Of a stretch of 64,000 nt of DNA, positions 28,211 through 47,919 are shown piece after piece. The position numbers and the translations under genes were made by a program. Below the pieces are notes generated by a model. The model worked only from the letters and a program-made list of their open reading frames with translations. It did not search any database and was not told the origin of the DNA. Source of the stretch: Desulfobacula sp. GTDB taxonomy: Bacteria; Desulfobacterota; Desulfobacteria; Desulfobacterales; Desulfobacteraceae. Where the stretch lies: contig JAMPXP010000004.1 of the NCBI GenBank assembly GCA_023701135.1, forward strand, positions 124,001 to 188,000. The letters are read 5' to 3'. Each line of letters opens with the position of its first letter. The stretch's first letter is position 1.

Positions 28211-28408
28211 GAAAAATTTTCCTTATAAATGCTATCAAAATCAATTAATTTTCCTCGACCTTCTTTAACAGCCAGGCTCCGATTGAATTTTAAGATGTTA
28301 TCCCATGCTTTAAATCAAGTCAAAAATTTTGTCGGCTATGTGAATGAAAAAAACGAAACTCCCACAGGGGGGGGGGATTGGCACCTGCAGTTGGAAATAC
28401 GATTCCTG

Positions 28409-31400
28409 GTTTCAATCCACGCTCCGCAGGAGGAGCGACCCAGGCATTGGTTCAGCTTTACAATTTTGAGATGGTTTCAATCCACGCTCCCGCGGGGGGA
28501 GCGACTTGGGCAAAATCAATCAGTGTTTCAAGTCCTACAGTTTCAATCCACGCTCCCGCGGGGGGAGCGACATCAATCACCAGTAAGTCGCATTCAGCCA
28601 ACTCTTGTTTCAATCCACGCTCCCGCGGGGGGAGCGACGCGGTCCTCAACCGTTACCGGCCCGGCATACCCGGTTTCAATCCACGCTCCCGCGGGGGGAG
28701 CGACTAGGACCCGAGACAATGCCGAAGGCTTTCCGAAGGTTTCAATCCACGCTCCCGCGGGGGGAGCGACTCATAATCCGGATGGCTTTATCCTGGATCT
28801 CAAGTTTCAATCCACGCTCCCGCGGGGGGAGCGACATTAAAAAGGTGGGAGAGTTTTGACAGAACGTATCGTTTCAATCCACGCTCCCGCGGGGGGGGCG
28901 ACCAAAATGTTCGATCAGCAGATCAATGGCGGTATTGTTTCAATCCACGCTCCCGCGGGGGGAGCGACGGGATTGTCTGAGAGGTAGGCGATTTGGGATG
29001 CGGTTTCAATCCACGCTCCCGCGGGGGGAGCGACTCAGCCATGCATTATTTGTTATGAATTGCCATCCGTTTCAATCCACGCTCCCGCGGGGGGAGCGAC
29101 AATTTTATTAACGATATCAAAAGGATTTTTTTATGTTTCAATCCACGCTCCCGCGGGGGGAGCGACAAATGATAAATTTGAACCAGGCATATAAAAACGC
29201 TGTTTCAATCCACGCTCCCGCGGGGGGAGCGACGCATATGACATCCCCTTAAACGGGGGGCACGTTGTTTCAATCCACGCTCCCGCGGGGGGAGCGACTA
29301 ATTACACCAACAATCTTTCCGACATATCCCACGTTTCAATCCACGCTCCCGCGGGGGGAGCGACAAAAGCCGGTATTGTTGGCGCTGTTTTATTCCTTGT
29401 TTCAATCCACGCTCCCGCGGGGGGAGCGACATAAAACGGCAAAGGAGATGTAGTGCCTGCACCGTTTCAATCCACGCTCCCGCGGGGGGAGCGACATGAG
29501 TGTGCCGCCGTATTGGTCAGGGTTACAAGTTTCAATCCACGCTCCCGCGGGGGGAGCGACTCATGCCATTATTACCATCAATGACCGGATGGTCCAGTTT
29601 CAATCCACGCTCCCGCGGGGGGAGCGACACGCCGTTGTTTGGTAGCCTTCACTTTCCAAGTCAGTTTCAATCCACGCTCCCGCGGGGGGAGCGACCACGG
29701 CATCGGTAAGGCCTATCCAGGGCGCCATGTTTCAATCCACGCTCCCGCGGGGGGAGCGACCATGCCTGATGCAGAACCAGCCCCGACACTAAAAGTTTCA
29801 ATCCACGCTCCCGCGGGGGGAGCGACTCAATCATATCCGTGATTGACAATGCCATGACCGGTTTCAATCCACGCTCCCGCGGGGGGAGCGACGAAGCAAA
29901 GATGTGGCAAGAATATTGGGTATAAGGTTTCAATCCACGCTCCCGCGGGGGGAGCGACAATCGTCTGTCATTGGCACTCCTTGTTTTAATGTGTTTCAAT
30001 CCACGCTCCCGCGGGGGGAGCGACTGCCCTCTTAGGGGCGTCAACCCTGGCCCATTCTGTTTCAATCCACGCTCCCGCGGGGGGAGCGACTGAGTTTTTC
30101 GATATATGAGAAAACAGCTTCTTGGTTTCAATCCACGCTCCCGCGGGGGGAGCGACTTTCCTTTTCAAAATCAGCCTGGGTTGTCCCCTGTTTCAATCCA
30201 CGCTCCCGCGGGGGGAGCGACAAGACGGCCATCTTATCCTTGGAAATGGACAAAGTTTCAATCCACGCTCCCGCGGGGGGAGCGACAATATGCGCGGCTG
30301 TTGTTGCCTGGGAAAACGTGTTTCAATCCACGCTCCCGCGGGGGGAGCGACATTTCACCGAGATCGGGAACCATGCAGAGTTCTTGTTTCAATCCACGCT
30401 CCCGCGGGGGGAGCGACCACCGCTGTCAGCATTGTTTCCCGGCGCGGGGTAGTTTCAATCCACGCTCCCGCGGGGGGAGCGACGCTGAGTAAGATTTTTT
30501 TTCACCCATTTGACCATGTTTCAATCCACGCTCCCGCGGGGGGAGCGACAAGCCTATATCCTGGCAATGCTCTGACAAGGCTGTGTTTCAATCCACGCTC
30601 CCGCGGGGGGAGCGACCCTGATTATGTTGTCACAATGCGGAAACCAGGGGTTTCAATCCACGCTCCCGCGGGGGGAGCGACATCGTTCTCAGCCCGTTTG
30701 CCGGGATCGGATCGGTTTCAATCCACGCTCCCGCGGGGGGAGCGACGACGGCCTTGAGCCAGGATCTGTCTTGCCAGAGCGGTTTCAATCCACGCTCCCG
30801 CGGGGGGAGCGACGGACACCTGCAAGGCCTTTGACCTGCGCCGCAGGTTTCAATCCACGCTCCCGCGGGGGGAGCGACTGAAATGGCTGGCCTTGAAAAG
30901 ATATCAGAAGAGTTTCAATCCACGCTCCCGCGGGGGGAGCGACGCAAGAGCCTAAAGGGGCTTCTTATCTCCGGGTTGTTTCAATCCACGCTCCCGCGGG
31001 GGGAGCGACACCTTTGCAGATGTGGCAGGCCCGGAACACCGCTGTTTCAATCCACGCTCCCGCGGGGGGAGCGACCCGGCTCCTATGGGAAAGACATCAA
31101 GGGAACCGGTTTCAATCCACGCTCCCGCGGGGGGAGCGACTATCGTTCTCAGCCCGTTTGCCGGGATCGGATCGGTTTCAATCCACGCTCCCGCGGGGGG
31201 AGCGACGCCGGTGTCTAAAAACTCAGAATATGGGATGTTGTTTCAATCCACGCTCCCGCGGGGGGAGCGACCCGCACTGTTCTGAGCTTTTGACCCCTTG
31301 ACCGTGGTTTCAATCCACGCTCCCGCGGGGGGAGCGACCTCATCCCCGAGCCAGACGTGTACCGCCTCATTGCGTTTCAATCCACGCTCCCGCGGGGGGA

Positions 31401-32001
31401 GCGACGCAAACCCCATCGAAAGATTTTTTAAAGATTCTTGTTTCAATCCACGCTCCCGCGGGGGGAGCGACGTGAGATGTTCCGGGCCTGCTACATCTGC
31501 AAGGGGTTTCAATCCACGCTCCCGCGGGGGGAGCGACCGGTTCCCGGGGTCAATGGGATATTCGGTTACGGCGTTTCAATCCACGCTCCCGCGGGGGGAG
31601 CGACCGTTTCATTTTTATATATTCTCCTTCAAAAAATTGTTTCAATCCACGCTCCCGCGGGGGGAGCGACCCCCTACTTCACAGTCCCAGGAGATACGGG
31701 CCTGGTTTCAATCCACGCTCCCGCGGGGGGAGCGACTTCGGGCCTGTCTTGACCCATTCGTACCCAACCAGTTTCAATCCACGCTCCCGCGGGGGGAGCG
31801 ACCAGTTTCAAGCCGGTGCTTTTTCAGTCGTGCAAGGTTTCAATCCACGCTCCCGCGGGGGGAGCGACCGGATCTTCGGCGTACTCCCACGGATGGACTT
31901 AGGGTTTCAATCCACGCTCCCGCGGGGGGAGCGACGGCATCTTTTGTGGCTGCTGAATCTTGGGAGCCTGTTTCAATCCACGCTCCCGCGGGGGGAGCGA
32001 C
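28409..32001 (-). CRISPR. type I-C CRISPR array, 55 repeats / 54 spacers counted; repeat (crRNA sense) GTCGCTCCCCCCGCGGGAGCGTGGATTGAAAC, 32 bp
   Basis: Repeat GTTTCAATCCACGCTCCCGCGGGGGGAGCGAC every 65-67 bp on the plus strand. Leader/cas2 lie at the right end and the degenerate terminal repeat (28409-28439) at the left, so transcription is on minus. Confidence 0.99.
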
Positions 32002-32233
32002 TGTAATACACGTAAGCTTTTGATATCACATCTCTTTGACAACTCAAAGTGCGAACCCTATCGTTTTTTTTAAAAAGAACGTTCAGATTGTCAAAGAGCA
32101 ATACAACATATTTAATAATATTAATCGATTAACCCTGTTGCGAACCTGATGAACCTATTATCAATACAGACCAATCATATATACAGCATTGATCCGGTTT
32201 TGGATTAATGCCGGCTTCAGGTTCGCACATGGC
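32002..32233 (-). promoter_or_regulatory. CRISPR leader (AT-rich, with inverted repeats)
   Basis: Between cas2 stop and first repeat; CTCTTTGACAA/TTGTCAAAGAG and TGCGAACCTGA/TCAGGTTCGCA inverted pairs. Confidence 0.8.
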
Positions 32234-32536
32234 TTAAACGATCAAAGGCCCTTCCAGATCAACGGCTTTTTTAGCCCCAATATGTTCAATCCTGTTTTTC
32301 CAGTTTGAACCCAGAAAATAAAACCTCAAACTGTCTGTTCCGGGAATTATTTCATCAATCAACCGCTGCCTGAGCACTGTCCATTGGGCAGGGTCCACAT
32401 TGCATTCAAAAACCGAAAACTGAACCCGCTGTCCATAATCCTTACAGGCCCTGGCAACGCGCCGCAGCCTTTTCTTGCCGTTTTCATTTATGGCAACATC
32501 ATAACTGACCAGCACCATCATGGGCCTTACCTCCAA
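32234..32536 (-). CDS. cas2: CRISPR-associated endonuclease Cas2
   Basis: MVLVSYDVAINENGKKRLRRVARACKDYGQRVQFSVFECNVDPAQW. Confidence 0.97.
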   Translation of the reverse strand: MEVRPMMVLVSYDVAINENGKKRLRRVARACKDYGQRVQFSVFECNVDPAQWTVLRQRLIDEIIPGTDSLRFYFLGSNWKNRIEHIGAKKAVDLEGPLIV

Positions 32537-33558
32537 AAAAAAGACGGATACCCGTCCAGGTCATTCCGCATATACCGGTTCATCAAGAGGGCCTGAATAT
32601 AAAAAAGCTGCCCGATCATCACCTTTTCATCAATAAATGGATGCAGGATCTCATCCTGCTTTCTTTTCTGATAGGCCATCAAAACCTTTTTCCTGCCCTC
32701 GTCTTGCATATAGACGGCCATGGAATCCTTTCTAAAAAAATCCTTCCGGGTCACCTGGCCCAGATTGATCAGGGTCAGGGCCAGACGGTCCGCAAGAAAG
32801 GGCCGGAATTCCTCCATCATATCCAGGGCAAGGCCCGGCCGCCCCGGCCTGTCCCGGTGAAGGAATCCCACCGCCGGGTCAAGACCCACACATTCAAGCG
32901 CTGACCGGACATCATGCATAAGAATCGTATAGAGAAAGGACAACAGGCAATTGACCTCATCCAGCGGTGGCCGTCTGTTTCGGCCGTTGAATGAAAAATC
33001 CTCTTTCTGGGAGGTGATCAGATGATCAAAGACGCTGAAATAATTTGCCGCCGCATCCCCTTCAATCCCGCGGATCACGTTCAGCGGCAGGGTCTCTGAA
33101 ATCTCCTTCAGTGTCCGGCCCAACCTTTTCACAACCTGCTCCACAGGGTCGGCAGCAATTTTATCCCCATGGTCCCGGAGCGACCGCTGTAGTACCTTCC
33201 GGCAGTTTGATATTTTGGCCGACAGGATGGAAGCGGCTATTTCCGATGACATATCTTCCTGGTCCGCCCGCCGGTACTGTTCGCGGCGGACAAGGACATT
33301 CCCCGAAACCGGCCCCTTGATCCGCGCCAGAAACCGCCCATATTGGGTCAGAAAGCTCACGGCAACATCCTTTTCAGCGCAGAACCCCATGAGAAAAGGG
33401 CTCATCATCACATTGCCAAAACAAACGATCCCGGAAACGGTATGGATCGGAAGGCGGAGCTTCGCCTCCCTTTCCACCGAGACCACGATGGTTTCTCCTT
33501 CCTTGGAAAGATAGCTGCCCTGGGTGGTCACAAAGAGGGTGTTTAAAAGTTTTTTCAT
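32527..33558 (-). CDS. cas1: CRISPR-associated endonuclease Cas1 (type I-C)
   Basis: LLNTLFVTTQGSYLSKEGETIVV; NRRPPLDEVNCLLSFLYTIL; GFLHRDRPGRPGLALDMMEEFRP. Confidence 0.97.
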   Translation of the reverse strand: MKKLLNTLFVTTQGSYLSKEGETIVVSVEREAKLRLPIHTVSGIVCFGNVMMSPFLMGFCAEKDVAVSFLTQYGRFLARIKGPVSGNVLVRREQYRRADQEDMSSEIAASILSAKISNCRKVLQRSLRDHGDKIAADPVEQVVKRLGRTLKEISETLPLNVIRGIEGDAAANYFSVFDHLITSQKEDFSFNGRNRRPPLDEVNCLLSFLYTILMHDVRSALECVGLDPAVGFLHRDRPGRPGLALDMMEEFRPFLADRLALTLINLGQVTRKDFFRKDSMAVYMQDEGRKKVLMAYQKRKQDEILHPFIDEKVMIGQLFYIQALLMNRYMRNDLDGYPSFFWR

Positions 33559-34188
33559 TTATTCCATCATCTTTTTCAAATAGGTCTTCACCGACTTGCT
33601 CTGACAGACACGGGGCATGCAGAAATCCAGAAACGAACAGCTTTCACATTTTTTATCATAGACCGGTTCCGGCGTTATTCTGTCCCGGATCATGACTTGC
33701 AGCCGCCGGGCCGTATCCATGGTTTCCGCCCTGAGTTCAGGCGTCAATAAAACCTGCTGCCGCCTGCGTGTTTTTCCGTAAAACAAAGCCCCCTCCGGAA
33801 TCCGGGTGTGATACATTTCCTCAAGACACAGGGCCTGGGCGCAGAGCTGGACCTTATCACTATTGTCTTGCTTGGGTTTTCCCCGTTTATACTCCACCGG
33901 ATAAGGGGCCCATGTCCCGGCCGCCTTATCCGTCAGATGAAATTCCACCACATCGGCCTGGCCCACCAGCCCCAATTCATGACAGACAAGATGAAGCCCA
34001 TATTCGATCCGGACCGATCCCCGGTCCCGTTCACCACCCTTGTCCACCCGTTCATGCATCACCCTGCCCTCGGCCGTGAATTTATTTTCAAACCACTGCC
34101 GCTCCACATGGATGAGAGCGCACTGCCTGGGGCAGAAAAGGTAGTGCTGGAGGGCGGAGAGGGGGAGAAGATCAGGCTCCTCTATCAT
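33559..34188 (-). CDS. cas4: CRISPR-associated exonuclease Cas4
   Basis: LSALQHYLFCPRQCALIHVE; YPVEYKRGKPK; C-terminal CxxC...C cluster CESCSFLDFCMPRVC. Confidence 0.97.
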   Translation of the reverse strand: MIEEPDLLPLSALQHYLFCPRQCALIHVERQWFENKFTAEGRVMHERVDKGGERDRGSVRIEYGLHLVCHELGLVGQADVVEFHLTDKAAGTWAPYPVEYKRGKPKQDNSDKVQLCAQALCLEEMYHTRIPEGALFYGKTRRRQQVLLTPELRAETMDTARRLQVMIRDRITPEPVYDKKCESCSFLDFCMPRVCQSKSVKTYLKKMME

Positions 34189-34202
34189 GATATGTCATCC
34201 CA

Positions 34203-35297
34203 TTATTCTTTCTCAATGGAAATGCCCAAAGGCAATTTATCTTTATCGATATTAAACCAATAATCGCCAAAGCTTCGAGCCGGTTTGGTTTCATCTTTCC
34301 GTTTGATTGATATAAGGTCAAACAAGGAATGGGCAGATGCATTTCCAAGTGCAGAATCATGCTTAAAGACAACAAGTCTCTGGGTTGACATCAGCCCCCG
34401 TGCGGCAGACCGGTCATGCTCAAACATATTGGTCAATGAACTCCAAAGCAAGGAAAGATCATTTTCATTAAAACCTGTCTGGGCTGCCAGATGGGGAGAA
34501 ATGAACCCATAGGCAACATAAACGCCATAAGGCACGGTATTTTTCCGGCCCATGGTCCGGTTGTCGCCTTGCTGCTTTTCCGCTTCAGCCTCTGTGGCAA
34601 CAGCCATACGGGTAATGGAGTGTTCCAGGGTCACAACCGGCTCCACAGAGCGGCCAAAGGTCATCTGGACAGGACCACGGACTTGGCCGCAGTTTGGCGC
34701 TGATTTCAGCGAAAGAACCGCCCCGAATGTCCGTATATCAAAATATTTTTTGCACATTTTCTGACGGCCTTGAATAGTTTCATCAGAAGTTGGCTTGCGA
34801 GGCTTGGCGTCTTTCAATGCGGCACTAATAAGTTTAGAAGTTTCTTTACTGAGTTTTTCTTCTTTCACCCATTCTTTGATCATTTTTTTATCGGCATCTG
34901 CTGCGACAATAAGCACTCCGCCATCTTCATCTTCATTTTCAATATAAGAAAGCCCTTCGGGTAAAGTAAGTTCATTAAATATTTCCATCATGTTTTGCGG
35001 AATGAGTTTGCGAGATTCTTCGCCAGTATCAATTCCAAGCTCTTTAAAAACTTCAAAATGCGCCCGGCCAAGGACAGCTTTTTCCTTAATATAAATATCA
35101 TTATTTCCAACAGCCTCATTGGTTATTTGAACATAATTTCGAACTTTCCGTTTAAGGCAAACATCAGTAACCAGTCCATGCCCTGTCTCCGGATCAATAC
35201 GGGGAAGGTTGCCAGCATCTGGATCACCGTTTGGATTTCCATCTTTCACGTCAAAAACAAGTGCAAAATCATATCTATTGCTTATCGGGTTGTTCAT
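34203..35297 (-). CDS. cas7: type I-C Cas7 (Csd2)
   Basis: [50 protein letters not shown]. Confidence 0.97.
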
Positions 35298-35340
35298 GCT
35301 TGACTCCTTATATATTTATTATTCTGTTAATCTTTAAGTT

Positions 35341-37059
35341 TCAGGAAAAAAACTTTTGCATCTGGTGATAATAACCAACTGCAAAACGGCCTTGATCATC
35401 AATTGTTAAGTGTGAAGGAAATGATGTTTCTGCCTCTACTCCATCGATAATCTGCGATAATAGTTTTTCAAAGAAGATTTTACGTCCTTTATTATCAAGT
35501 TTTGAAAGATGATGATTTTTCAATCTCATCAAATTTCCGAATACTGTGCTTGGTGTTCCTGAGGCTGCCCCATAGAAACGGTCACGAATAGTAGCGTTGA
35601 TTCCAGGGTTGGCCTCCTGCTGGATTTTCTCAAGCGTGGCAAAAAGCCTCCCCAGCCTATACCCTATGTTTGTATTATTTTCATCCAAACTCATATTAAG
35701 TTCCTCCTTGATTTGTTGGTTTTTAAACCGGGTTGATCTGTTTATACAAGCTTTGATCAAGGCTGCGCGAGGATATGTGACTTCATGCTCTGCCCGGATA
35801 CGTCGAATAGTTGCCTGTAATAATGTGTTTGGGTATGGCAAGCCTTGAAGAATCGCTCGTATAGTTTCACCTGCAAGATTTGGAGGGATGTTATCTGCTT
35901 TTCCCTGAACCGCTATGGAAACCAAAAGCCGAAAAAGAGATAGAACATTCTTATCCCTTGGACTATGAACAATGCTTACGTCTTTAAAATGTTGGCTGAT
36001 CTTTTGGGATATACCAGACACAGTATCAATGATCCAAAAACGGATTGATATCCTTGAGGAATTTGGAGAAAGACCAAGAACATAAAACTTTTTTTTATCA
36101 TTGTTATTGTTCAGATATGTTCCATTTTCAATCGACTTGAAAAGGCTTTCAACAGCTTTAACACCTTGGTCAGGGTCATCTTCTGGCGGCTCTCCAAATA
36201 TATCAGGGAGTTGCTTTTCAAGTTCACAGTCTTTTTCACTCCAAAATACCATAGTTGCGTCTCCGGCCAGCATCCGTTGAGTAGAGTCTATTGAAAGAAG
36301 ATGATTCAAGGCTGTGGTGTATGCGAAAGCTGCTAAGCGCCCAATTGGAGAATTATAATTTTTCTCTTTCCCATATGATCGAAATGATTCTAAATTGAAC
36401 GCTACGAGAGAACGTTCGGCTTTTTGGTCATTTCCATATATTCCTTTGATGGGAGCTTCTAATCTAACAATCTCATCGTTGTTACCTGTAACCAGGCATG
36501 TTCCATTAACAGAATCGGGACGCTTTTTTGTGTTGATTATTTCGCGTATTTCAGGATCGTTGGTAATAGGGCCAACACCTTGAAATGATATGAGAAGGTT
36601 TTTATTAATTGATAACGCCTCTTTCCAAACCACATCTTTCTTTAAACTTTCACGGTGATCTGTCTTGGCAAATTTTAATGCTGCCATAATTTTTTTATGT
36701 TCTTGCCCGAGTTTTGATATTTGTTGTTGAAAAGCTAAATGCTGTTCATGTACCCTTTCAGGGTCTGGGTTCGGTTTGCTTTTAGTTGGGACCGGGATTC
36801 CAAATACATACTCGATATTTTCCCAGAAAAGATTAGATTTAATTCCATTACCCTTCTTTTCACCAAGTGAAGGCACAAGATACATATGCCCTCGCTTTGA
36901 CTTTCCCTCCCTTGTGTCTTGGATCGAGCAAAAATTACCATTTTCAGAAATTATTACAAGAAAGGGGATTTCTTTCCATTCCCAACCGTAAGGAGCAATT
37001 CCAGATTTAGGATCAGCCGTTTTTCGATGATAGTATTCCTCGAGTGATTGAAGTATCAT
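35341..37059 (-). CDS. cas8c: type I-C Cas8c (Csd1)
   Basis: LQSLEEYYHRK...IAPYGWEWKEIPFLVII; position between cas5 and cas7; SFQGVGPITNDP; YRLGRLFATLEKIQQEANPGINATIRDRFYGAASGTPSTVFGNLMRL. Confidence 0.96.
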   Translation of the reverse strand: MILQSLEEYYHRKTADPKSGIAPYGWEWKEIPFLVIISENGNFCSIQDTREGKSKRGHMYLVPSLGEKKGNGIKSNLFWENIEYVFGIPVPTKSKPNPDPERVHEQHLAFQQQISKLGQEHKKIMAALKFAKTDHRESLKKDVVWKEALSINKNLLISFQGVGPITNDPEIREIINTKKRPDSVNGTCLVTGNNDEIVRLEAPIKGIYGNDQKAERSLVAFNLESFRSYGKEKNYNSPIGRLAAFAYTTALNHLLSIDSTQRMLAGDATMVFWSEKDCELEKQLPDIFGEPPEDDPDQGVKAVESLFKSIENGTYLNNNNDKKKFYVLGLSPNSSRISIRFWIIDTVSGISQKISQHFKDVSIVHSPRDKNVLSLFRLLVSIAVQGKADNIPPNLAGETIRAILQGLPYPNTLLQATIRRIRAEHEVTYPRAALIKACINRSTRFKNQQIKEELNMSLDENNTNIGYRLGRLFATLEKIQQEANPGINATIRDRFYGAASGTPSTVFGNLMRLKNHHLSKLDNKGRKIFFEKLLSQIIDGVEAETSFPSHLTIDDQGRFAVGYYHQMQKFFS

Positions 37060-37754
37060 CCCCTCACCTCCCCAGTATTAGTTCGATCCGGCACATAGAT
37101 CACACCGCTTTTTAACTCCGGCCTGAAAAACATGGGTTTGATATCCTCTAGGTCGGAAAAATCCATATCATAGAGCATCCAGCCAAGATCCCGGTTTTCA
37201 TTGATGGGGGTTGCCGGTTCAATTTGAGGATTTACCAAACGGAAATGAGCAGAAAATTCCCGGCAGCCCAGGTAGGGCTGATTGAAACACTGGCCTTTCT
37301 TTGCCCGCCGTTCAAACATGGCTGCGTATTTGGCCTGGGTTTCATCTTCCCGAATCTTTTCTTCTTCGTTATTCTCCAGATATTCCGGTACAGGATTAAA
37401 AACCTTGCTACGCATTTCAAGCGGAATGAATTCAAATTCGGCAAAAAGCCTGTACTTAACATCACGCAAAAAAAGCCCGGCCCTTTGCTGCCTGTCATCT
37501 TCAATAAAAATTTGTTTTTTCCCTATTGATGCTTTTGAATGAACTTCATTCCGCCTTACAGAAATCCATCGAATGGGCGAAAGCACTTCGATTCGTTTTA
37601 TTTGCCAGAAGATGGCAGGTTTCCAAAGGATGGCATCGAAAATGGCGCGGGCGGCTGATGGGGTTATCACATCATAGCTGACCCGCTCCACCTTCATTTC
37701 CGGTCGGGTGAAGCAGGCATAGGGCCCGCTCACCTCCAAGCAAAATCCTTTCAT
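37056..37754 (-). CDS. cas5: type I-C Cas5 (Cas5d)
   Basis: FCLEVSGPYACFTRPEMKVERVSYDVITPSAARAIFDAILWKPAIFW. Confidence 0.96.
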   Translation of the reverse strand: MKGFCLEVSGPYACFTRPEMKVERVSYDVITPSAARAIFDAILWKPAIFWQIKRIEVLSPIRWISVRRNEVHSKASIGKKQIFIEDDRQQRAGLFLRDVKYRLFAEFEFIPLEMRSKVFNPVPEYLENNEEEKIREDETQAKYAAMFERRAKKGQCFNQPYLGCREFSAHFRLVNPQIEPATPINENRDLGWMLYDMDFSDLEDIKPMFFRPELKSGVIYVPDRTNTGEVRG

Positions 37755-37775
37755 GGTTCACCTCTCTTTGTTTTA

Positions 37776-39962
37776 TCAAATAAATAAATCTTCAGGCATC
37801 CATCCAAGACCAAACAGGTCAAGCCCGAAGTCGGGGCTATAGGGGCCGAGCCAGGCCCAGAAGCCGGACCATAATTCTTCCACCATTCCTTCCCTTTGCA
37901 TTTTTTCAAAATCTCTTTTGGAAACATTGACCGAATACCGCTGAAGTTTTCGCATATTATGGCGTGTCGGGCCGATTCGCCTTAACTCATCCATCCATGT
38001 TTGACTTCCTTTGAATTTTACAAAAAGCGGCTGGGTAGAATTTTCGATCAGGTTAAATGACGTTGCAGCAGTACGAAAATGGATATGAACCTGAGTTGCA
38101 TCTTTTTCCAGCCAGTCTTTGAACCGATGCCCTGTATCGTTGACTCTGCTGTAAAACAAGGAAAAATAACGACTGAAGGCTTCCGGATGTTGAGGATTGA
38201 ATCCGGGCAAACTCATTAATTCTATCGTTGTATCTTCCCCTTTTCGCAACAATCCTCCGGGAGCCGGTTTTGGCGGCACAAAAACATGGATCGCACCCAA
38301 TTTTCCGGTTTTGTTGAGCTTTCCTTCCCGGTTGCATCGTCCTCCTGCCTGGGCGATTGAGTCCAGTCCGGCAAGAGCACGATATACAACCGGAAAATCA
38401 ATATCAACCCCTGCTTCAACCAATTGAGTGCTGATGACGCGAATGGGTGAGCCTTTTTCAAGAGTTTCTTTGATTGCCCGGATGACCTCTGACCGGTGAT
38501 CCCCGCACATGAGGGCGGAAAGATGAATCGTTCCTTCCGGCATAAGTCTGAACAAATCATAGCAATCACGCCGGGTATTGACCACACAAAGGGCCTGATC
38601 ATTTTCCTTCAGCTTTTCAGCAATATCCTCCCATGTGTTCCGAATTTTCAAATCTTGAGGAAAACAAGTTTCTGTCCGCTTCAGTTGGTCATAAAGTTCA
38701 AAACGGTTGGCTATGATTTCATGGGGCGTATCAAGATTTGGAAGGGCTGGTTGTGTAGCAGTAGCAAGAACCATAGTGACCCCGTAGTGCCGGGTAAGGT
38801 GGTTGATGACGTTGACGCACGGGTCGAGAAGCCCCGGCGGGAGAAGCTGGGCCTCATCAAGGATAACCACACTGTTGACAATGTTATGGAGTTTCCGGCA
38901 ACGGCCCGGCCTTGCTGCATACAATGACTCGAAAAACTGTACGTTGGTGGTAACGATAACAGGGGCGTCCCAATTTTCCGAGGCAAGGCGGGTACGCTGG
39001 GTTTCCTTATCCGGATCAAGGTTGCTGTGATGTTCTACGACATTTTCAGCTCCGAAAATATCCGATAGAATTTTTGCGGTTTGTTCAATAATGCTGGTAT
39101 AGGGAATCACATAGATAATCCGGTCTTTTCCGTGCTTCACGGCATGGTCAAGTGCGAAAGCCATGCCTGAAAGCGTTTTCCCGCCGCCAGTGGGAACACT
39201 GAGGGAAAAAAGACCTGAATCCTCATTTGCAGCCTTCCGGCAGGCAGATAAAATATGGTTTCGAATTTTATTGATATCGTTCTCAGGGCCTTTCTTTTTC
39301 ATGGATTCCATATGGGAATCGAATAGTTCTTTTAGTTCGGATAAACCAGGATATCCTTTTCTGATTTCGGAATTGGCCGGGGTCATAAAGCTTTCCGTAT
39401 CCAAGAAATCCGCATCCACCAGACATGAAAAAAGCATTCTTATCCAGATATGAAAATGGTCTTTCTTTACAAAGGGAGGAAGATTGACCCCCTGCCTGAT
39501 ATTTTTTTCAAATTCATTTACGACAGCGCGAATCCGGGCAAGGTTTATTCTCCCTTCCTCTAATCGAAACTCAAGCGCGGCCCGCCCCGTATCGGAGGGA
39601 TAGAAATCCGGTAATCCGGCATGGTGCCCGGCTGAAAGATAAGCATAGATCAGACCCAACTGAGGCCCCAGGCAATCCGTGGCATAGGCGGCCCCGGCGC
39701 TTGAGTGATTTATTCTACCAAGCCCGGTTCCGTCATATTCAGAATCATCAAGTCTATTTTCCCGGAGAAGATAAACCTGAAACTCGTCCGCCGCTTTACC
39801 AAAATCATGAAGCCAACCCGCATTCCAGGCCCATTTAGAAGATAGAAATTTATCTGCAAAGGCAGATGCCATTTCGGCAACGTTTTTTAAGTGGTCCTCA
39901 AGCCGCTGCCATTCTGAACGAGGTTTGCCGTCCTTGCTGTGGGCGTAATAGTCTTTTATCAT
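37776..39962 (-). CDS. cas3: Cas3 HD nuclease-helicase
   Basis: HLKNVAEMASAFADKF...GWLHDFGKAADEF (HD); SVPTGGGKTLSGMAFALDHA; SVVILDEAQLLPP. Start moved to MIKDYYAHSK at 39962 (AAGGAGG RBS). Confidence 0.96.
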   Translation of the reverse strand: MIKDYYAHSKDGKPRSEWQRLEDHLKNVAEMASAFADKFLSSKWAWNAGWLHDFGKAADEFQVYLLRENRLDDSEYDGTGLGRINHSSAGAAYATDCLGPQLGLIYAYLSAGHHAGLPDFYPSDTGRAALEFRLEEGRINLARIRAVVNEFEKNIRQGVNLPPFVKKDHFHIWIRMLFSCLVDADFLDTESFMTPANSEIRKGYPGLSELKELFDSHMESMKKKGPENDINKIRNHILSACRKAANEDSGLFSLSVPTGGGKTLSGMAFALDHAVKHGKDRIIYVIPYTSIIEQTAKILSDIFGAENVVEHHSNLDPDKETQRTRLASENWDAPVIVTTNVQFFESLYAARPGRCRKLHNIVNSVVILDEAQLLPPGLLDPCVNVINHLTRHYGVTMVLATATQPALPNLDTPHEIIANRFELYDQLKRTETCFPQDLKIRNTWEDIAEKLKENDQALCVVNTRRDCYDLFRLMPEGTIHLSALMCGDHRSEVIRAIKETLEKGSPIRVISTQLVEAGVDIDFPVVYRALAGLDSIAQAGGRCNREGKLNKTGKLGAIHVFVPPKPAPGGLLRKGEDTTIELMSLPGFNPQHPEAFSRYFSLFYSRVNDTGHRFKDWLEKDATQVHIHFRTAATSFNLIENSTQPLFVKFKGSQTWMDELRRIGPTRHNMRKLQRYSVNVSKRDFEKMQREGMVEELWSGFWAWLGPYSPDFGLDLFGLGWMPEDLFI

Positions 39963-40029
39963 ATGAGATACCTCCTTGAAATTATCCCTATTATAAAACC
40001 CACCTGGGACAAAACCGGTCCCATTTGAA

Positions 40030-41040
40030 TCATTTTTTTTCATAATTTTTTATAGCCTCCAGACTTTTTTCCAGATCGGCCCAGATCTCCTGTTTCAGGT
40101 CATCGGGCGAAAGGAGCAGGGCGTCTTTGCCAAAGGACAGGACCCAGGATTTGATGTCGCGGCGGCCCGAGGAGGTCATGGTCAGGATGAGGGAACCGTC
40201 CGGGTGTTCGATGAGGATCTGGTCCCCGGCCCAGGTTTTCTCTTTGATGTACCGGGCCACGGCCGGGCTGAACCGGATTTTTACGGAGACGGGATCTCCA
40301 TGGGTCAGGTCAAAGGCGGAATCCAGGGTTTCTTCCGGGTCAAAGCCCGGAGGGTAAGTGGTGCTGCGGTTCAGGGGCCGGATACGGCGGATGCGCTCGA
40401 CGGCATAGCTCCGGACCTGGCGATTCTTGAGCTTGACGGCAAAGAGGTAGAGGCCGCCCCGGTTTTCGTAGAAATGCAGGGGGCCGATGTCTTCTTCGGT
40501 GATTTCATCCTTATAAAAGGCGTGATAGGTGATGCGGCAGGCTGTGCGGTTCAGGATGGATTCCGTAAGGGTCCGGATGGTGTCTTCTTTTCCCCCATAG
40601 GTTTTGGAGCCCATGGTTTTGCAGATGAAGATGCGCTTCAGGGCCGACAGCTCGGTTTGGGTGTCTTCGGGCAGAAAAAGCATGAGCTTGGCAATGGCGG
40701 CGGCGATGTGGCCGCTGATGTCCGTTCCCCTGAAAATCACGGATTCGCCGGCCAGCATGGAAAGGGAAATGATTTCGGGAAGGGACAGGGCGATTTTCGG
40801 GAGGTCCAGGTTGGGCATGCGGGAAAGGTAAGCGGAATCGATGCGCCAGTGTTTTTCCCTTTCAGGACCGTCGCGGTCGTCATAGACCGGGATGGCCAGG
40901 TCTTCAACAACCTGTATGGCCCTGGACACGGAGCGGATGGAAATGCCCAGTTCCAGGGACAGTTCTTTTCTCGTGACGCCCTGGGGCCGGGATAAAAGGC
41001 CCAGGGTGCGGATCAACTGGACAAGATTTTTTCCCCTCAT
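40030..41040 (-). CDS. WYL-domain HTH transcriptional regulator adjacent to cas3
   Basis: LIRTLGLLSRPQGVTRKELSLELGISIRSVSRAIQVVEDL winged HTH; WYL-like central region (ITYHAFYKDEITEEDIGPLHFYENRGGLYLFAVKLKNRQVRSYAVERIRRI). Confidence 0.85.
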   Translation of the reverse strand: MRGKNLVQLIRTLGLLSRPQGVTRKELSLELGISIRSVSRAIQVVEDLAIPVYDDRDGPEREKHWRIDSAYLSRMPNLDLPKIALSLPEIISLSMLAGESVIFRGTDISGHIAAAIAKLMLFLPEDTQTELSALKRIFICKTMGSKTYGGKEDTIRTLTESILNRTACRITYHAFYKDEITEEDIGPLHFYENRGGLYLFAVKLKNRQVRSYAVERIRRIRPLNRSTTYPPGFDPEETLDSAFDLTHGDPVSVKIRFSPAVARYIKEKTWAGDQILIEHPDGSLILTMTSSGRRDIKSWVLSFGKDALLLSPDDLKQEIWADLEKSLEAIKNYEKK

Positions 41041-41252
41041 GGATGCTCTCCTTTTTGACTTCACACTTATCCTATTCAGTGCTCCGTCGCAATCGGGGAA
41101 TCCCTTATTTTTTAAAAAAATTTTCAGGACCGGCATTCCCTCAATATATTGCATTTCTTTTTACCCTCCTGATTTTCCTTGCATCGCCGGAAAACAAAGG
41201 ATATGCATTGAAACCGGGGATAAGACAAATTTGGATGAATGATGGGAGAAAA

Positions 41253-41963
41253 ATGCCTGTAACATACGCCGGGCTAAGTTCGGCAGGAAAAAGAAAACGA
41301 AACGAAGACTGTTTTCTCATTAAAGTCCTTGGTCCGGACAGGGTATTGTTTGCCGTTGCGGACGGGCTGGGCGGCCAGCCATCAGGCCATATCGCATCCC
41401 TGACCGCCATCCGGGCCATAGAAACCCTTTTCCCCGGCGCCGGGCTATCTGAAACGGAAATGGCCGGGATGGTCCTAAAGGTGGACGATGCCGTTAAGGA
41501 ATCGGCAAAAACCGACCCGGCCCTGGAATACATGGGCACGACCCTGACGGTTGCCCTGTTTGACAAGGGCAGAGTGATCTGGGCCCACGTCGGCGACGCA
41601 AGGCTTTATCATTTAAGGCAACGCAGGCTTTCACAGATCACAACGGATCAAACCATGGCCCAGTTCCTGGTTGAAGAAGGCGAGATCACCCGGAAAGAAG
41701 CCCTGACCCATCCCATGCAGCATTTTCTGGCCCAGAGCCTTGGCGGCGGGGGGTGCGAGCCCGAATCCGGGTCCTTTAACATTCTACCCGGAGAAATCGT
41801 CCTGCTGTGTTCCGATGGTCTGTATTCCGAAATAGACGAAGATCGGATCATCGCCCTCCTGTCTTCACAGCATGGGATAGAGGAAAAAGTCCGCCTTCTG
41901 GTCAAGGCCGCAGAAGATTCCGGCGGCCTTGACAATATCACTGGGGTTTGCCTGGAATTTTAA
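41253..41963 (+). CDS. PP2C-family protein phosphatase
   Basis: AGLSSAGKRKRNEDCFLI, LFAVADGLGGQPSGHIAS, VIWAHVGDARLYHLR, VLLCSDGLYSEIDE, DNITGVCL. Start is approximate. Confidence 0.93.
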   Translation: MPVTYAGLSSAGKRKRNEDCFLIKVLGPDRVLFAVADGLGGQPSGHIASLTAIRAIETLFPGAGLSETEMAGMVLKVDDAVKESAKTDPALEYMGTTLTVALFDKGRVIWAHVGDARLYHLRQRRLSQITTDQTMAQFLVEEGEITRKEALTHPMQHFLAQSLGGGGCEPESGSFNILPGEIVLLCSDGLYSEIDEDRIIALLSSQHGIEEKVRLLVKAAEDSGGLDNITGVCLEF

Positions 41964-42046
41964 CCGGCCCATATTTTTCTTGACAACACACAAAATAGTA
42001 TTTTACAGGTTTCCGAGAACGTACATCAACCCTGATTAAAGACAAT

Positions 42047-43825
42047 ATGCCAATGGAAAATTTCCGGATCGAACGACGGACATCAGAACGGAAGAAACTG
42101 GATCCCATGGGCATCGGTATCGCCCATATTGAACATGTGAAAAGCATAGACGATTCCCATGACGAATTCAGAAAGCCGGCCCGCTATATCGACATTGTGG
42201 ACAGGAGCTGCGACGGCCTCTGCCTGAGAGTAACCGGGGCGGAGGAGATCAGCAGCCCCTTTGTCCTTGAAATCTGCAGCCATGACCGGCAGGCCTGGGA
42301 AACGGCCCTGTGTGAACACAGGTGGGTGATCCGAGACGGCAAGCACGATGATTTCTCGATCATGGGCTGCTGTTTCCGGAAAATGGACATGGCTCCGGAG
42401 GACAAGCCCAAAGCCCTTTATATCCCCCGGTCCGAGGATTATGGGTTTATCCGGTCAACCCGAATTTTTCAGGCCATTGATCGCAGCGGGGTGTGTCCCT
42501 TTTTAAATATCTTGAATTTCAGGGTCGTCAAATCCGGCGAACTGATCATGAAACAGGGGGAAAAAGGCGATGCCTGTTTTCTGATTCAAAAGGGCACCGG
42601 TATTGTTTTCATTGAAAAAGATCAAAAAACGCACCGGGTTGCAAGAGTAAAAAAGGGTGACCTTATTGGAGAAATGGCCATTTTAACCGGTGAAGTCCGA
42701 AATGCAGGTGTTATGGCAGAAACCGATATGGAACTGTGGTCCCTTGAAAAAGACAAATTTGACCGGTTGATGGAAAAATACCCGGATATCAGAGGCTTTT
42801 TAACGGAACTGATAACAGAACGATTTGTTTCCAGAACAAAAATTGCCGACCGGAAAATAGGTAAATATCTAATCCAGCACAAAATAGGGACAGGCGGCTA
42901 TGCAATTGTATATGGCGGCAAACATGAATTGTTGAATATGCCGGTGGCCATCAAGATGATGAAGCATGATATGGCCATGGAAAAAACCTTTCTCCATAAT
43001 TTCCGGAATGAAGCCAGGATGATTGCCCAGTTTAATCATGAAAATATCGTAAAGGTTTATGATATCGAGGAAAGGTACCGGACCGTCTTCATTATCATGG
43101 AGCTGCTGGAAGGAGCCTCCCTTGAGGAAATCCTGGAGAATAAAACCCGCCTGCCTTATGCCAAGGGAATCGATTACCTGATCCAGATCTGTTCGGGACT
43201 GCAGTACGCCCATGCCAAGGGAATTGTTCACCAGGACATCAAGCCGGCCAATATCTTTATAACCCATGAAGATACTGTGAAAATCCTTGACTTCGGGCTT
43301 GCCTGCCCTTCCGCCACTGAAAACACCGATACGCCCGGCACACCCTTTTACATGTCTCCGGAGCAGATCGAAATGGATTCCGTCGATGAACGCTCGGATA
43401 TCTATGCCCTAGGAATCATGACCTATGAAATGATTCTCGGTCAACGGCCCTATCCCGAAAATGATCTGCTGAAACTGATGGATCTCCACGTCGAGGCCGA
43501 TATCCCGGACCCCTGGGCGACAGATCCCGGCATTCCCGGGGAATTGAGGGATTTTATTTTAAAAGCATGCAGCCGGAACAGATCGGACCGATACAAAAAT
43601 ATAGGGGAAATCCTGTCTTTTTTAAAGCCGCTTAAGGACGGGGCCAGTCAGGGCGACACACTGGCGATATCGGAAAAGAGAAAAATGACCTCTTTGTTTT
43701 TGTTTTCCAGTGAAAGCCGGCAACTGGAATTGAACAAGCTGCTGGAAGAATTTGCTTTAAAGGCCCAACAGCTTGGGATAACCATTAAGGCTGCGGATTT
43801 TAAAAATATTCACATCAGTTCTTGA
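42047..43825 (+). CDS. PilZ-like + cyclic-nucleotide-binding + Ser/Thr protein kinase fusion
   Basis: RRTSER...DRSCDG (PilZ-type RxxxR/DxSxxG); ELIMKQGEKGDACFLIQKGTGIVFIE...GDLIGEMAILTGEVRNAGVMAETD (cNMP); KIGTGGYAIVYGG...VAIKMM...GIVHQDIKPANIFI...ILDFGLA...GTPFYMSPEQ (kinase). Confidence 0.9.
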   Translation: MPMENFRIERRTSERKKLDPMGIGIAHIEHVKSIDDSHDEFRKPARYIDIVDRSCDGLCLRVTGAEEISSPFVLEICSHDRQAWETALCEHRWVIRDGKHDDFSIMGCCFRKMDMAPEDKPKALYIPRSEDYGFIRSTRIFQAIDRSGVCPFLNILNFRVVKSGELIMKQGEKGDACFLIQKGTGIVFIEKDQKTHRVARVKKGDLIGEMAILTGEVRNAGVMAETDMELWSLEKDKFDRLMEKYPDIRGFLTELITERFVSRTKIADRKIGKYLIQHKIGTGGYAIVYGGKHELLNMPVAIKMMKHDMAMEKTFLHNFRNEARMIAQFNHENIVKVYDIEERYRTVFIIMELLEGASLEEILENKTRLPYAKGIDYLIQICSGLQYAHAKGIVHQDIKPANIFITHEDTVKILDFGLACPSATENTDTPGTPFYMSPEQIEMDSVDERSDIYALGIMTYEMILGQRPYPENDLLKLMDLHVEADIPDPWATDPGIPGELRDFILKACSRNRSDRYKNIGEILSFLKPLKDGASQGDTLAISEKRKMTSLFLFSSESRQLELNKLLEEFALKAQQLGITIKAADFKNIHISS

Positions 43826-43878
43826 TCATCCCGGCCGTATTTTGTTTTTTTGACTACTCTGTTTAAAGGAAATTTCAA

Positions 43879-46800
43879 ATGGAATGCCCGATATGCAGAT
43901 CCATCAATCCTTCGGAATTTAAATTCTGCGGCCGGTGTGGGTCGGAAATCAACCAAAGCTCTGGATCAGGGGAAAAGCCTTCGGAGCATAAAAGTGAACG
44001 CAAGCATGTGACCGTCTTGTTTTCGGACCTGTCAGGGTATACGGCCATGACCGAGCGTCTTGATCCGGAAGAGGTCCGGGCGATTTTAAACAAAGTGTTT
44101 AAAACCGTTTCAAATATCATTGAAAAATTCGACGGATTTATTGAACGATACATCGGCGACTCGGTCATGGCGGTCTTCGGAATCCCCAAAGCCCATGAGG
44201 ATGACCCTTCAAGGGCCGTCCATGCCGCCTTTGAAATCCATGCGGCCGTAAAATCAATGAATTCCTGGATCCGGGAAAAAACCGGGCAGCCCGTTTCCAT
44301 GCATACGGGCATCAATACAGGACTGGTCGTTACCGGAGAGGTGAATGCGGAAACCGGCTCCCATGGCTTAACCGGATTAACCATCAATATTGCCTCCCGT
44401 CTTGAAGGCCTTTCCAAAGATGAGGAAATTTTAGTCGGGCCGGAAACCCATAAACTGACGGAACATCTTTTCGATTTTCAGGCCCTCAAACCCGTTCAGG
44501 TGAAAGGCAAATCGGAATTATTACCGGTCTATAAAGCCCTGTCAAAAAAACAGAAGACCTTTTCTGAACCGCCAAAAACATCTTTTTCAGGCAGAACGGA
44601 AGAACTTGCTCTGCTGACTGAATTGTCGGATCAAATCCTCCGCACCGGCACCGGCCATATTGTGTTTATCATCGGAGATCCCGGCATCGGAAAATCCCGG
44701 CTGGTCGAAGAGTATAAAAAGCAATTGTCCCATGACGGACTATTATGGCTGGAGGGACGGTCCTCTTCATATCTTCAGGAAACAAGCTATGGCACTTTTT
44801 TAAATATTTTAAAAAAATATGCCGGCATCAAGGATGCTGACGACGATATAAACGGATGGAATAAACTTGAAGAAAAATTAACCCGTTTGTTTCCGGAGGA
44901 GGTTCCCGATACCCTGCCCTACCTGGCAACCCTGCTGTCATTAAAAATAAAGGGAAATTTATTGAACAAGGTACTGTTTCTGGATGGAGAGGCCTTCAAG
45001 AATCAGATCTTCAGGGCCTTTTACCTTTTCCTGAAACGGTTGACAGAGGATCGGCCCGTGGTGCTTGAATTTGAAGATTACCACTGGGCCGATCAGTCGA
45101 CTGTTGATTTATTGGGGCATCTCATCCCCATGGTGTGTGACGTTCCTCTATTATTATTGTTTGTCAGCAGGGATACAAAAAACCTGCCGGCGGCAGAAAC
45201 AAGAACCTTGCTGCAAAGCGAATACAGCGACCACTATTCCGAAATCATCTTAGAGCCCCTTTCCAGGGAGACCATTCTTGAACTGGCCTGCAAAAAATTG
45301 AATTCTGAGCCCATCTCTTCGGAATTAAGCGGATTGATTCATCGAAAATGCGAAGGGAATCCCCTTTACCTGGAAGAGCTTTTCCGAACCCTGAACCACG
45401 GCAATCTAATCGAAAAAAATGAAGCCACCGGACAGTACACCATAACCCCGTTGGCCGGCAAAGTCCCTATTCCGGATACGCTGAGAGGGATCGTTGAATC
45501 AAGCATTGACCGGCTGGATGAAGATATCAAGGAACTCTTAAAATCAGCTTCCGTCATTGGAAGGAATTTTTTTTACCGCTTGTTGGAGGCGGTTGAAAAG
45601 AGCAATGAACATTTAGATTCCGAGTTGTCTGTTTTAATGCGAGAAAACCTGATCAGAAAAAACACCCAAAATCCTGAACCCGAGTATTTTTTTTATCATG
45701 ATTTGATTAGAGACGCCGCCTATGAAACCATCCTGCTGACGCACCGGGAAAAACTGCACCGCAAGGTGGGGGAAGCCATTGAAAATATTTTTAATGACCA
45801 GATCGAAAAATTTTATGGCCTGCTCTCCTATCATTTTGCAAAGGCCTCCCAATGGGGCAAGGCCCAGAAATATCTGATCAAAGCCGGGGACCAGGCCAGC
45901 CGGATCGCCGGGGATTCGGAAGCCCTGGCATACTACAAAAAAGCCCTGGCCGCCCATGAACAATCGTTTGGAAACAAGCTGGATGATTTTGAAAAAGCGG
46001 TTTATCAAAGAAAATTGGGGGAAATCTATTTCAGGCGGGGCGAACACGACAAAGCCTTGATCTCTCTTCGGCAAGCCTTTCATCTATTGGGGATAACCTA
46101 TCCCTTCGGCAAATGGCGGATAAGGGCTGCGATTTTAAATCAAGGCATCCGGCAGATCATCAAAAGAATATGCCGGATTTTTCATTCGCCAAGGATGAAC
46201 AGCCAATTGAGCCGAACCGAAGAAGAAGTCTGTAATATCTTTGAAACCATGATCTGGATTGATTTTTTTATCAACCAGGAGCGCCTTGCCTTTGATCTGA
46301 TTGCGGCATTGAATTATGCAGAAAGAATCGAATCACGGCCAAGGATGGTCCAGGGATATGCAGGGATGGGACTCCTGTCTGACACCCTGGGGCTTCCGTC
46401 CATTGCACGAAAATATCATGATTTGTCCATGCGGCAGATTCAAACGATTGAAGAAGGATTGATAACAGCAACCGTCTATCTTTGCCTGGGGTATCATTAT
46501 GGTTTTCAGGGCAGATGGAAGGATGCCCTGGAATCCTATGAAAAATCAGCAGATCAATTTAAAACGATCGGCCATTTAAAAAAATGGGGAAATGCAAAGC
46601 TCATGTCGGGTCATATCTTTTTATTTCAAGGCCAATTTGCCCGGAGTCTTGAAATCAGCATGGACATCGCCCAGGCCGGCTTGGAAACCGGAGACCATCA
46701 GTTAAGAGGCCACGGCCTCAGCAGCATGGGCGCTAATCAGATTTATACCGATTCTGTGGATGAGGCCATGTCAAACCTGAAACAAGCCGTGAAACTCCTG

Positions 46801-47367
46801 GAGTCCATTCCGGATTATTATGCCTTAGGCGCTGCAAATACCGACCTTGCAAGGTGTTATCTGACTAAGGGAGATGTGAAGGCGGCCCATGCCATCTTAA
46901 AGAACAATGAAAAAATGATCACACAAAAAGGACTTCACGGTTTCATCGTCAGTCTGTTCTATAATACTCTGGCGGAAGCCTGGTTAAATATATTTGAAAC
47001 ATCGATTGACGTCGGTGAAAAAATCAGTTTGGGGAAATTAAAACATTATATTTCAAAGGCAACCCGGCATGCCCGCCATTTTGCATGCGGCCGGCCCAGG
47101 GCCTTAAGATTAAAAGCCCTGTTTTTCTGGTTGGCGGGAGACCCCCGGAAGGCGCGCAAATTCTGGGAAAAAGGTCTTGGCCTGTGTCAAGAACTCAATT
47201 TCCGCCATGAAGAGGGACTGATATATTCGGATATGGGAAACCGGCTTCACGATTCAGCCTGTTTGAAAAAGGCCCGGGAAATTTTCATGGAAACAGGCGC
47301 GAACCTGAATTTGATCGCTGTAAAAAAATCCATTGAAGCCCAGGAGGCGAGCCGGGATGAAAAGTAA
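43879..47367 (+). CDS. zinc-ribbon + class III nucleotide cyclase + AAA ATPase + TPR protein
   Basis: MECPICRSINPSEFKFCGRCGSEI; HVTVLFSDLSGYTAMTERL...RYIGDSVMAVFG...INIASRLEG; IIGDPGIGKSRLVEEY; TPR-like repeats. Confidence 0.93.
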   Translation: MECPICRSINPSEFKFCGRCGSEINQSSGSGEKPSEHKSERKHVTVLFSDLSGYTAMTERLDPEEVRAILNKVFKTVSNIIEKFDGFIERYIGDSVMAVFGIPKAHEDDPSRAVHAAFEIHAAVKSMNSWIREKTGQPVSMHTGINTGLVVTGEVNAETGSHGLTGLTINIASRLEGLSKDEEILVGPETHKLTEHLFDFQALKPVQVKGKSELLPVYKALSKKQKTFSEPPKTSFSGRTEELALLTELSDQILRTGTGHIVFIIGDPGIGKSRLVEEYKKQLSHDGLLWLEGRSSSYLQETSYGTFLNILKKYAGIKDADDDINGWNKLEEKLTRLFPEEVPDTLPYLATLLSLKIKGNLLNKVLFLDGEAFKNQIFRAFYLFLKRLTEDRPVVLEFEDYHWADQSTVDLLGHLIPMVCDVPLLLLFVSRDTKNLPAAETRTLLQSEYSDHYSEIILEPLSRETILELACKKLNSEPISSELSGLIHRKCEGNPLYLEELFRTLNHGNLIEKNEATGQYTITPLAGKVPIPDTLRGIVESSIDRLDEDIKELLKSASVIGRNFFYRLLEAVEKSNEHLDSELSVLMRENLIRKNTQNPEPEYFFYHDLIRDAAYETILLTHREKLHRKVGEAIENIFNDQIEKFYGLLSYHFAKASQWGKAQKYLIKAGDQASRIAGDSEALAYYKKALAAHEQSFGNKLDDFEKAVYQRKLGEIYFRRGEHDKALISLRQAFHLLGITYPFGKWRIRAAILNQGIRQIIKRICRIFHSPRMNSQLSRTEEEVCNIFETMIWIDFFINQERLAFDLIAALNYAERIESRPRMVQGYAGMGLLSDTLGLPSIARKYHDLSMRQIQTIEEGLITATVYLCLGYHYGFQGRWKDALESYEKSADQFKTIGHLKKWGNAKLMSGHIFLFQGQFARSLEISMDIAQAGLETGDHQLRGHGLSSMGANQIYTDSVDEAMSNLKQAVKLLESIPDYYALGAANTDLARCYLTKGDVKAAHAILKNNEKMITQKGLHGFIVSLFYNTLAEAWLNIFETSIDVGEKISLGKLKHYISKATRHARHFACGRPRALRLKALFFWLAGDPRKARKFWEKGLGLCQELNFRHEEGLIYSDMGNRLHDSACLKKAREIFMETGANLNLIAVKKSIEAQEASRDEK

Positions 47368-47416: not shown

Positions 47417-47671
47417 TTAATAATGGTATCTGAGCTGGGCGATCAGGACAGCATCATTTTCAATTTTATAAATGATCCGGTGCTCGTGGCTGATTCTTCT
47501 AGACCAGTATCCGGCAAGATTGTGTTTGAGGGGTTCGGGTTTCCCGAGGCCTTCATATTTGTTTCGCAGGATGTCTTTGATAAGGGTATTAATCCGGTTC
47601 AGAGTTCTTTTATCCGTGTTCTGCCAGTACAAATAGTCTTCCCAGGCATGTTCGGAGAATATCAGCTTCAT
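47417..47671 (-). CDS. yoeB: YoeB mRNA interferase toxin
   Basis: MKLIFSEHAWEDYLYWQNTDKRTLNRINTLIKDILRNKYEGLGKPEPLKHNLAGYWSRRISHEHRIIYKI. Confidence 0.97.
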   Translation of the reverse strand: MKLIFSEHAWEDYLYWQNTDKRTLNRINTLIKDILRNKYEGLGKPEPLKHNLAGYWSRRISHEHRIIYKIENDAVLIAQLRYHY

Positions 47672-47919
47672 TCAGCCAGTTCTCTTTCTTTTCCCCGGCC
47701 CTTTGTCAGTTCTTCTATGGATTCCATCAGTCTTTTTGCGTTCTTCGGGCTCTGCAATAAATATGCGGTTTCATTCAGTGCTTCATAATCCTGGAGAGAC
47801 AGCAAGACCACAGCTTCATTATTTTTGCGGGTGATGATGATCGGATCATGATCGTCGCAGACTTGTTTTATGGTGCCGGCAAGATTATTCCTTGCCGTTG
47901 TATACGTGATGGCTCTCAT
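47668..47919 (-). CDS. yefM: YefM antitoxin
   Basis: MRAITYTTARNNLAGTIKQVCDDHDPIIITRKNNEAVVLLSLQDYEALNETAYLL; overlaps yoeB. Confidence 0.96.
   Translation of the reverse strand: MRAITYTTARNNLAGTIKQVCDDHDPIIITRKNNEAVVLLSLQDYEALNETAYLLQSPKNAKRLMESIEELTKGRGKERELAE

Follow-up and report, generated by a model that had tools for sequence, protein, structure and literature searches.

In eukaryotic PKG, tandem cyclic mononucleotide-binding (cNMP) domains lie directly N-terminal to a Ser/Thr kinase domain in one chain. Pkn1 of Myxococcus xanthus combines a Ser/Thr kinase with a PilZ domain that is predicted not to bind cyclic diguanylate (c-di-GMP), and no cNMP domain is reported for it (PMC8316039). 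In Xanthomonas, a class III cyclase gene is linked to that of a cNMP-domain effector joining cGMP and c-di-GMP signalling (XC_0250/XC_0249; PMC3770947), and Bd1971 of Bdellovibrio has a cNMP domain with a Glu and Arg cradle that is tied to c-di-GMP signalling (PMC6717892). TIGR03903, the model of the TOMM kinase/cyclase fusion, implies that one chain can combine a Ser/Thr kinase with a class III cyclase, followed by a large C-terminal part. A search of open-access papers found no account of a bacterial kinase carrying both PilZ and cNMP domains. Such a kinase is predicted in Desulfobacula sp., within a stretch of 64,000 nucleotides (contig JAMPXP010000004.1, positions 124,001 to 188,000; hereafter the window), where its gene lies between those of a PP2C-type phosphatase and a class III nucleotidyl cyclase.

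The window kinase shares with PKG the placement of a cNMP domain before the kinase domain, but has one cNMP domain rather than a tandem, an extra PilZ domain and a PknB-type kinase sequence. Its PilZ motifs are complete, whereas the PilZ domain of Pkn1 is not expected to bind c-di-GMP. The Xanthomonas effector produces c-di-GMP through its GGDEF diguanylate cyclase activity and the output of Bd1971 is an EAL phosphodiesterase; the output here is a kinase, which may read c-di-GMP. In contrast to the TOMM fusion, the window proteins are encoded by separate genes, with PilZ and cNMP domains added; TIGR03903 aligns to both the kinase (1.7e-30) and the cyclase (1.1e-76), the two scores (the higher 258.7 bits, the lower 105.6) being far below its cut-off of 705.75.

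We propose, with a probability of roughly 0.6, that the three genes constitute a phospho-signalling cassette built around a PKG-like bacterial kinase that is gated by a cyclic nucleotide and probably by c-di-GMP, with the PP2C phosphatase as reset. Protein or ATP status would gate the AAA-TPR class III cyclase, which would make a cyclic mononucleotide, and binding of this to the cNMP domain would release or reposition the adjacent kinase domain. As a second condition, c-di-GMP from the cell's approximately 20 GGDEF proteins would bind the N-terminal PilZ domain, and the PP2C phosphatase would take the phosphates off. Such a circuit, whose basic logic was already part of the original prediction, is plausible and fits the intact ligand-binding and catalytic residues. 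The recurrent, modular cassette itself is real, as judged from computational tests of its domains, key residues, predicted fold and repeated gene linkage; its mechanism, including which nucleotide is used, whether each input acts positively or negatively, what the kinase phosphorylates and whether PP2C is its partner, is what we infer.

The open reading frames and domain scans of the window place all three genes on the + strand in the order PP2C phosphatase, PilZ-cNMP-Ser/Thr kinase, class III cyclase (Table 1), bearing out the original prediction, made from the sequence alone, of three consecutive genes on a single strand. The intergenic gaps are 83 nt (PP2C-kinase) and 53 nt (kinase-cyclase), and a scan of both found no terminator-like site on the + strand. 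Profile searches of the 4.8-Mb genome, assembled in 42 contigs, gave 7 class III cyclase, 2 PP2C_2, 8 PilZ and 20 GGDEF matches; with the first two so scarce in a genome of this size, the grouping is not attributable to chance. To call the cassette self-contained, as was done at first, overstates the case: its genes are together, but the c-di-GMP enzymes (the 20 GGDEF matches) are encoded elsewhere in the genome.

The N-terminus of the kinase protein is convincingly predicted to be a PilZ domain, since its motifs, the family profile and the modelled fold all point the same way, so that the original assignment from the RRTSER...DRSCDG motifs is upheld. Pfam PilZ gave no match to the window kinase protein even at E = 1; among 15 close family members it scored in five, the best at 4.6e-6. 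In the family alignment, the N-terminus contains ERRxxxR, D/NxSxxG and a final GVEF strand, with the motifs kept in most relatives, and the window protein has both RxxxR (ERRTSER) and D/NxSxxG (DRSCDG). An AlphaFold2 model of residues 1-131, built with 34 sequences and compared with the PDB by Foldseek, has the PilZ beta-barrel fold, and its top matches are the PilZ domains of BcsA, MrkH, YcgR, Alg44 and MapZ, with modest individual scores (best E 3e-4, TM about 0.5).

A single cNMP domain follows, with the Glu and Arg of its phosphate-binding cassette, residues whose equivalents in CRP hold ribose and phosphate (PMC6717892). The Hanks-type kinase domain retains the VAIK Lys, the HxD Asp and the DFG Asp. 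In Foldseek comparisons, the best PDB matches of the full kinase model are PKG structures, aligned across the cNMP and kinase domains together; bacterial PknB, PknA and Stk1 match the kinase domain alone at lower rank. The predicted architecture is PKG-like, and the protein is not taken for a PKG family member because it has one cNMP domain rather than two and its kinase-domain sequence scores best with the bacterial PknB-type model.

The cyclase has the two metal-binding Asp and the transition-state Asn and Arg of class III enzymes, and its domain finds its best PDB sequence match (5.6e-27) in Cya2 of Synechocystis (2W01). Its zinc ribbon scores better (6.4e-6) in L071, a relative with the same cyclase architecture. 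The PP2C protein matches Pfam PP2C_2 (3.7e-14) and NCBIfam Stp1_PP2C_phos (7.7e-55; 185.9 bits, below the equivalog cut-off of 230), and contains the motifs RNED, ADGLGG, GDAR, SDG and DN. A ribosome-binding site (GGGAGA, 41244-41249) favours the tabulated start over that of the longest open reading frame, at 41043.

Table 1. Genes and predicted domains of the signalling cassette (window positions).
Feature	Position	Strand	Details	Evidence
PP2C-type Ser/Thr phosphatase	41253..41963	+	236 aa from ATG at 41253	Pfam, NCBIfam, ribosome-binding site
PilZ-cNMP-Ser/Thr kinase	42047..43825	+	592 aa	Open reading frame, Pfam, family alignment
PilZ domain	42047..42424	+	Residues 1-126; ERRTSER 42071-42091, DRSCDG 42200-42217	Family alignment, Pfam in relatives, AlphaFold2 model and Foldseek
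cNMP-binding domain	42521..42781	+	Residues 159-245; phosphate-binding cassette GEMAILTGEVRNAGV, Glu209 and Arg218 kept	Pfam PF00027, 1.3e-19 (70.4 bits, cut-off 27.5)
Protein kinase domain	42872..43597	+	Residues 276-517; Lys303, HQD Asp397 and DFG Asp415 intact, non-RD	Pfam Pkinase 4.4e-56, alignment
Family-specific C-terminal tail	43685..43822	+	RKMTSLFLF...KAADFKNI, partly helical in model	Family alignment, model
Class III nucleotidyl cyclase, multidomain (zinc ribbon, AAA ATPase, TPRs)	43879..47367	+	1162 aa	Open reading frame, Pfam
Zinc ribbon, DZR-like	43885..43953	+	CxxC...CxxC	DZR 0.002, sub-threshold
Class III cyclase domain	43996..44520	+	Two metal Asp and transition-state Asn and Arg retained; Arg..Gly at purine site	Pfam Guanylate_cyc 3.6e-27 (95.6 bits), alignment
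AAA_16 / STAND-type ATPase	44584..45153	+		1.7e-23
TPR region	45919..47300	+		TPR_12 3.4e-19

Relatives of the kinase were sought in whole genomes of 243 members of the order, where full-length PilZ-cNMP-kinases occur in roughly a dozen, and by a GTDB contig scan with the full-length kinase alignment, from which the best 80 of 284 relatives were kept; after removal of duplicates the comparison set held 92 cNMP-kinases, about 37 of them with a PilZ domain by the family profile. The combination of PilZ, cNMP and kinase domains in one chain is unusual, as originally thought, and not unique, being found in metagenome-assembled genomes (MAGs) of Desulfobacterota and Nitrospirota. The nearest relatives of the window kinase are L059 (from a Desulfotignum sp. 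MAG, 70% identical), whose contig starts inside the kinase gene, and L144, from the same family. Other matches in the window's own genus are different paralogs, some with a broken catalytic loop, and were dropped as a test of conservation for that reason.

The order PP2C-kinase-cyclase is found again in three loci (L067, L069 and L128). The order in L072 is kinase-PP2C-cyclase, L074 has PP2C-kinase at a contig end, and the kinase adjoins a cyclase in seven further loci (L049, L065, L068, L071, L080, L083 and L090). Linkage, defined as location on the same strand within 1.5 kb, was tested in 20 unique PilZ-cNMP-kinase relatives with at least 1.5 kb of flank on both sides: a class III cyclase is linked in 7 of the 20, versus about 0.08 expected from the gene density of the window genome, and a PP2C gene in 5, versus about 0.02. 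The cNMP cassette is intact in 14 of 15 cyclase-linked kinases versus 34 of 78 others (naive Fisher 4e-4). On the kinase tree, cyclase linkage requires at least eight state changes, and the cyclases linked within a single 11-row kinase clade are of CHASE2, CHAT or AAA-TPR type. Linked cyclases comprise the zinc ribbon-cyclase-AAA-TPR kind (window and L071), CHASE2-cyclases (L067, L069, L072, L083 and L128), cyclase-CHAT-TPR proteins (L049 and L068) and one short cyclase that lies at the edge of a contig (L044/L065), those of L080 and L090 being assigned by length and sequence similarity only. Because the linked cyclases have four architectures, cyclase activity, rather than one particular sensor, seems to be the retained element.

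The purine site of adenylyl cyclases consists of Lys with Asp or Thr, and Glu replaces the Lys in guanylyl cyclases, with Glu..Gly in Cya2 (PMC4215837, PMC7384201). Among cyclases linked to PilZ-kinases, the CHAT group and the CHASE2 group except L072 have Glu..Gly; the others have Glu..Ala (L044), Asn..Gly (L071), Asp..Thr (L072) or Arg..Gly (window and L144). Most CHASE2-linked cassette cyclases share both architecture and purine pair with Cya2 (2W01; PMC4215837, PMC5995499), whereas the window cyclase differs in both, its pair being Arg..Gly and an AAA-TPR arm taking the place of CHASE2. In unlinked cyclases of the same loci and in the others of the window genome, Lys..Thr, Asp..Thr and degenerate pairs predominate; L051, with a Glu..Gly CHASE2 cyclase near its kinase on the opposite strand, is the exception. 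The residue after the cassette Arg is often Ser or Thr in cGMP-specific kinases and Ala in cAMP-specific ones (PMC6717892); it is Thr in L071 and in kinases linked to Glu..Gly cyclases, that is, in the CHASE2/CHAT-linked relatives other than L072, and Asn in the window kinase, not the Ser/Thr typical of PKG. Because the cyclase purine pair and the kinase cassette residue co-vary, mostly within one kinase clade, use of cGMP is suggested for the sister CHASE2/CHAT cassettes. A guanylyl cyclase was considered for the window also and dropped, since the first purine residue is Arg; most CHASE2/CHAT sisters look guanylyl. The window cyclase has neither the Cya2-like Glu nor the Lys with Asp/Thr of adenylyl cyclases. 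Among 30 AAA-TPR cyclases the commonest pairs are Lys..Gly (10) and Arg..Gly (5, including the window), for which reason the window Arg looks like a conservative substitute for Lys; from these residues cAMP is slightly favoured as the messenger of the window cassette.

A fuller version of the proposal, in which the kinase would be a PKG-like coincidence detector of c-di-GMP and a cyclic mononucleotide, which would be cGMP for most types of cassette, evolved independently of eukaryotes and encoded with its own phosphatase and a cyclase of interchangeable sensor, is tentative and on balance doubtful. If it were true, cAMP or cGMP and c-di-GMP signalling would feed straight into bacterial Ser/Thr phosphorylation, as in eukaryotic PKA and PKG, from a compact operon with an exchangeable sensor part. 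The relatives, which differ at matched cyclase and kinase positions, offer a direct test of the nucleotide used.

Several observations weigh against the cassette as proposed. The co-conservation in relatives on which the original prediction depended is mostly borne out, by the loci of the same or variant order and the seven kinase-cyclase pairs, but is not universal: the full triad is missing from most relatives, many PilZ-cNMP-kinases stand alone, a cyclase is absent immediately downstream on the strand of L059 and a PP2C from the vicinity of L144, and the same-genus matches are paralogs. The linkage P values treat partly related loci as independent and are too optimistic, and phylogenetically independent pairs comparing cyclase linkage with cNMP-site integrity were too few (sign test p = 1). 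The Arg..Gly pair of the window cyclase is non-canonical. PilZ is not always a predicted c-di-GMP site in this family, because its motifs are broken in L064, L066 and L095 although the architecture is retained. If PilZ and cNMP domains were structural remnants and the kinase were controlled by protein partners instead of nucleotides, such losses would be expected, as would the loss of both the cassette Arg and the HxD Asp in a pseudokinase branch (L041, L043, L045 and L046) and the Asn in place of the usual Ser/Thr after the window cassette Arg; but the key PilZ, cNMP and kinase residues of the window protein are all intact, as in nearly all cyclase-linked relatives, and this explanation appears quite improbable.

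It is also conceivable, if unlikely, that the cNMP-kinase and PP2C form a functional pair that answers to the general cAMP pool, with the cyclase a mere neighbour. Even cNMP-kinases that lack PilZ often have a linked PP2C gene (14 of 35), and more rarely a linked cyclase (1 of 35); within 1.5 kb of the 29 other AAA-TPR cyclases no gene for a kinase or PP2C was detected, and the genome has six other class III cyclases. Cyclase linkage, however, is repeated and involves several cyclase architectures, and in L144, from another genus, orthologs of the window kinase and cyclase share a strand at a distance of about 5 kb, with mobile-element-like genes between them. An anti-phage system resembling Pycsar, with the cyclase producing a nucleotide upon infection and the cNMP-kinase as effector, was considered on account of the adjoining type I-C CRISPR-Cas locus and WYL regulator and of matches to two PADLOC models, PycC (up to 63 bits) and the PD-T4-6 kinase. 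These matches are confined to generic domains of cyclases and kinases, and Guanylate_cyc gives a higher score (95.6 bits); the scanned neighbours in relatives include ECF sigma factor, zinc-finger anti-sigma, GAF-SpoIIE phosphatase and envelope-type genes and no defence genes, and a resetting PP2C better suits reversible signalling. The case for a defence or CRISPR-linked function is weak, and we regard it as very improbable.

Some relatives have distinctive surroundings. The PilZ-cNMP-kinase and CHAT-TPR cyclase of L068 (L068:4071-13212), a combination also present in L049, have ECF sigma factor and zinc-finger anti-sigma genes before them and asparagine-synthase/QueC-like and YcaO-TPR genes after them; upstream open reading frames of L049 are similar to those of L068 in size, the only property compared. 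The pseudokinase branch (L041:8655-14777, L043:373-5021, L046:2-4875 and, in part, L045) retains the PilZ motifs, and adjoins a gene of 911-913 aa, resembling pyruvate phosphate dikinase in L041 and L043 and matched by length only in L046; a c-di-GMP-reading pseudokinase paired with a phosphoenolpyruvate enzyme is possible. A PilZ-less cNMP-kinase is followed directly by a PilZ-cNMP-kinase in L039:436-3952 and L040:850-4273.

The type I-C CRISPR-Cas locus of the window (28408-41154) contains approximately 54 repeats (GTTTCAATCCACGCTCCCGCGGGGGGAGCGAC) and the genes cas1, cas4, cas7, csd1/cas8c, cas5 and cas3 on the - strand, together with the WYL-type regulator, which is divergent from the PP2C gene. 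On the other side of the cassette, a YefM/YoeB-type toxin-antitoxin pair (47417-47919, - strand) is convergent with the cyclase gene. A YcgR-type protein with DUF4388, PilZNR and PilZ domains, encoded near the CRISPR array (27161-28210, - strand), is a candidate c-di-GMP receptor.

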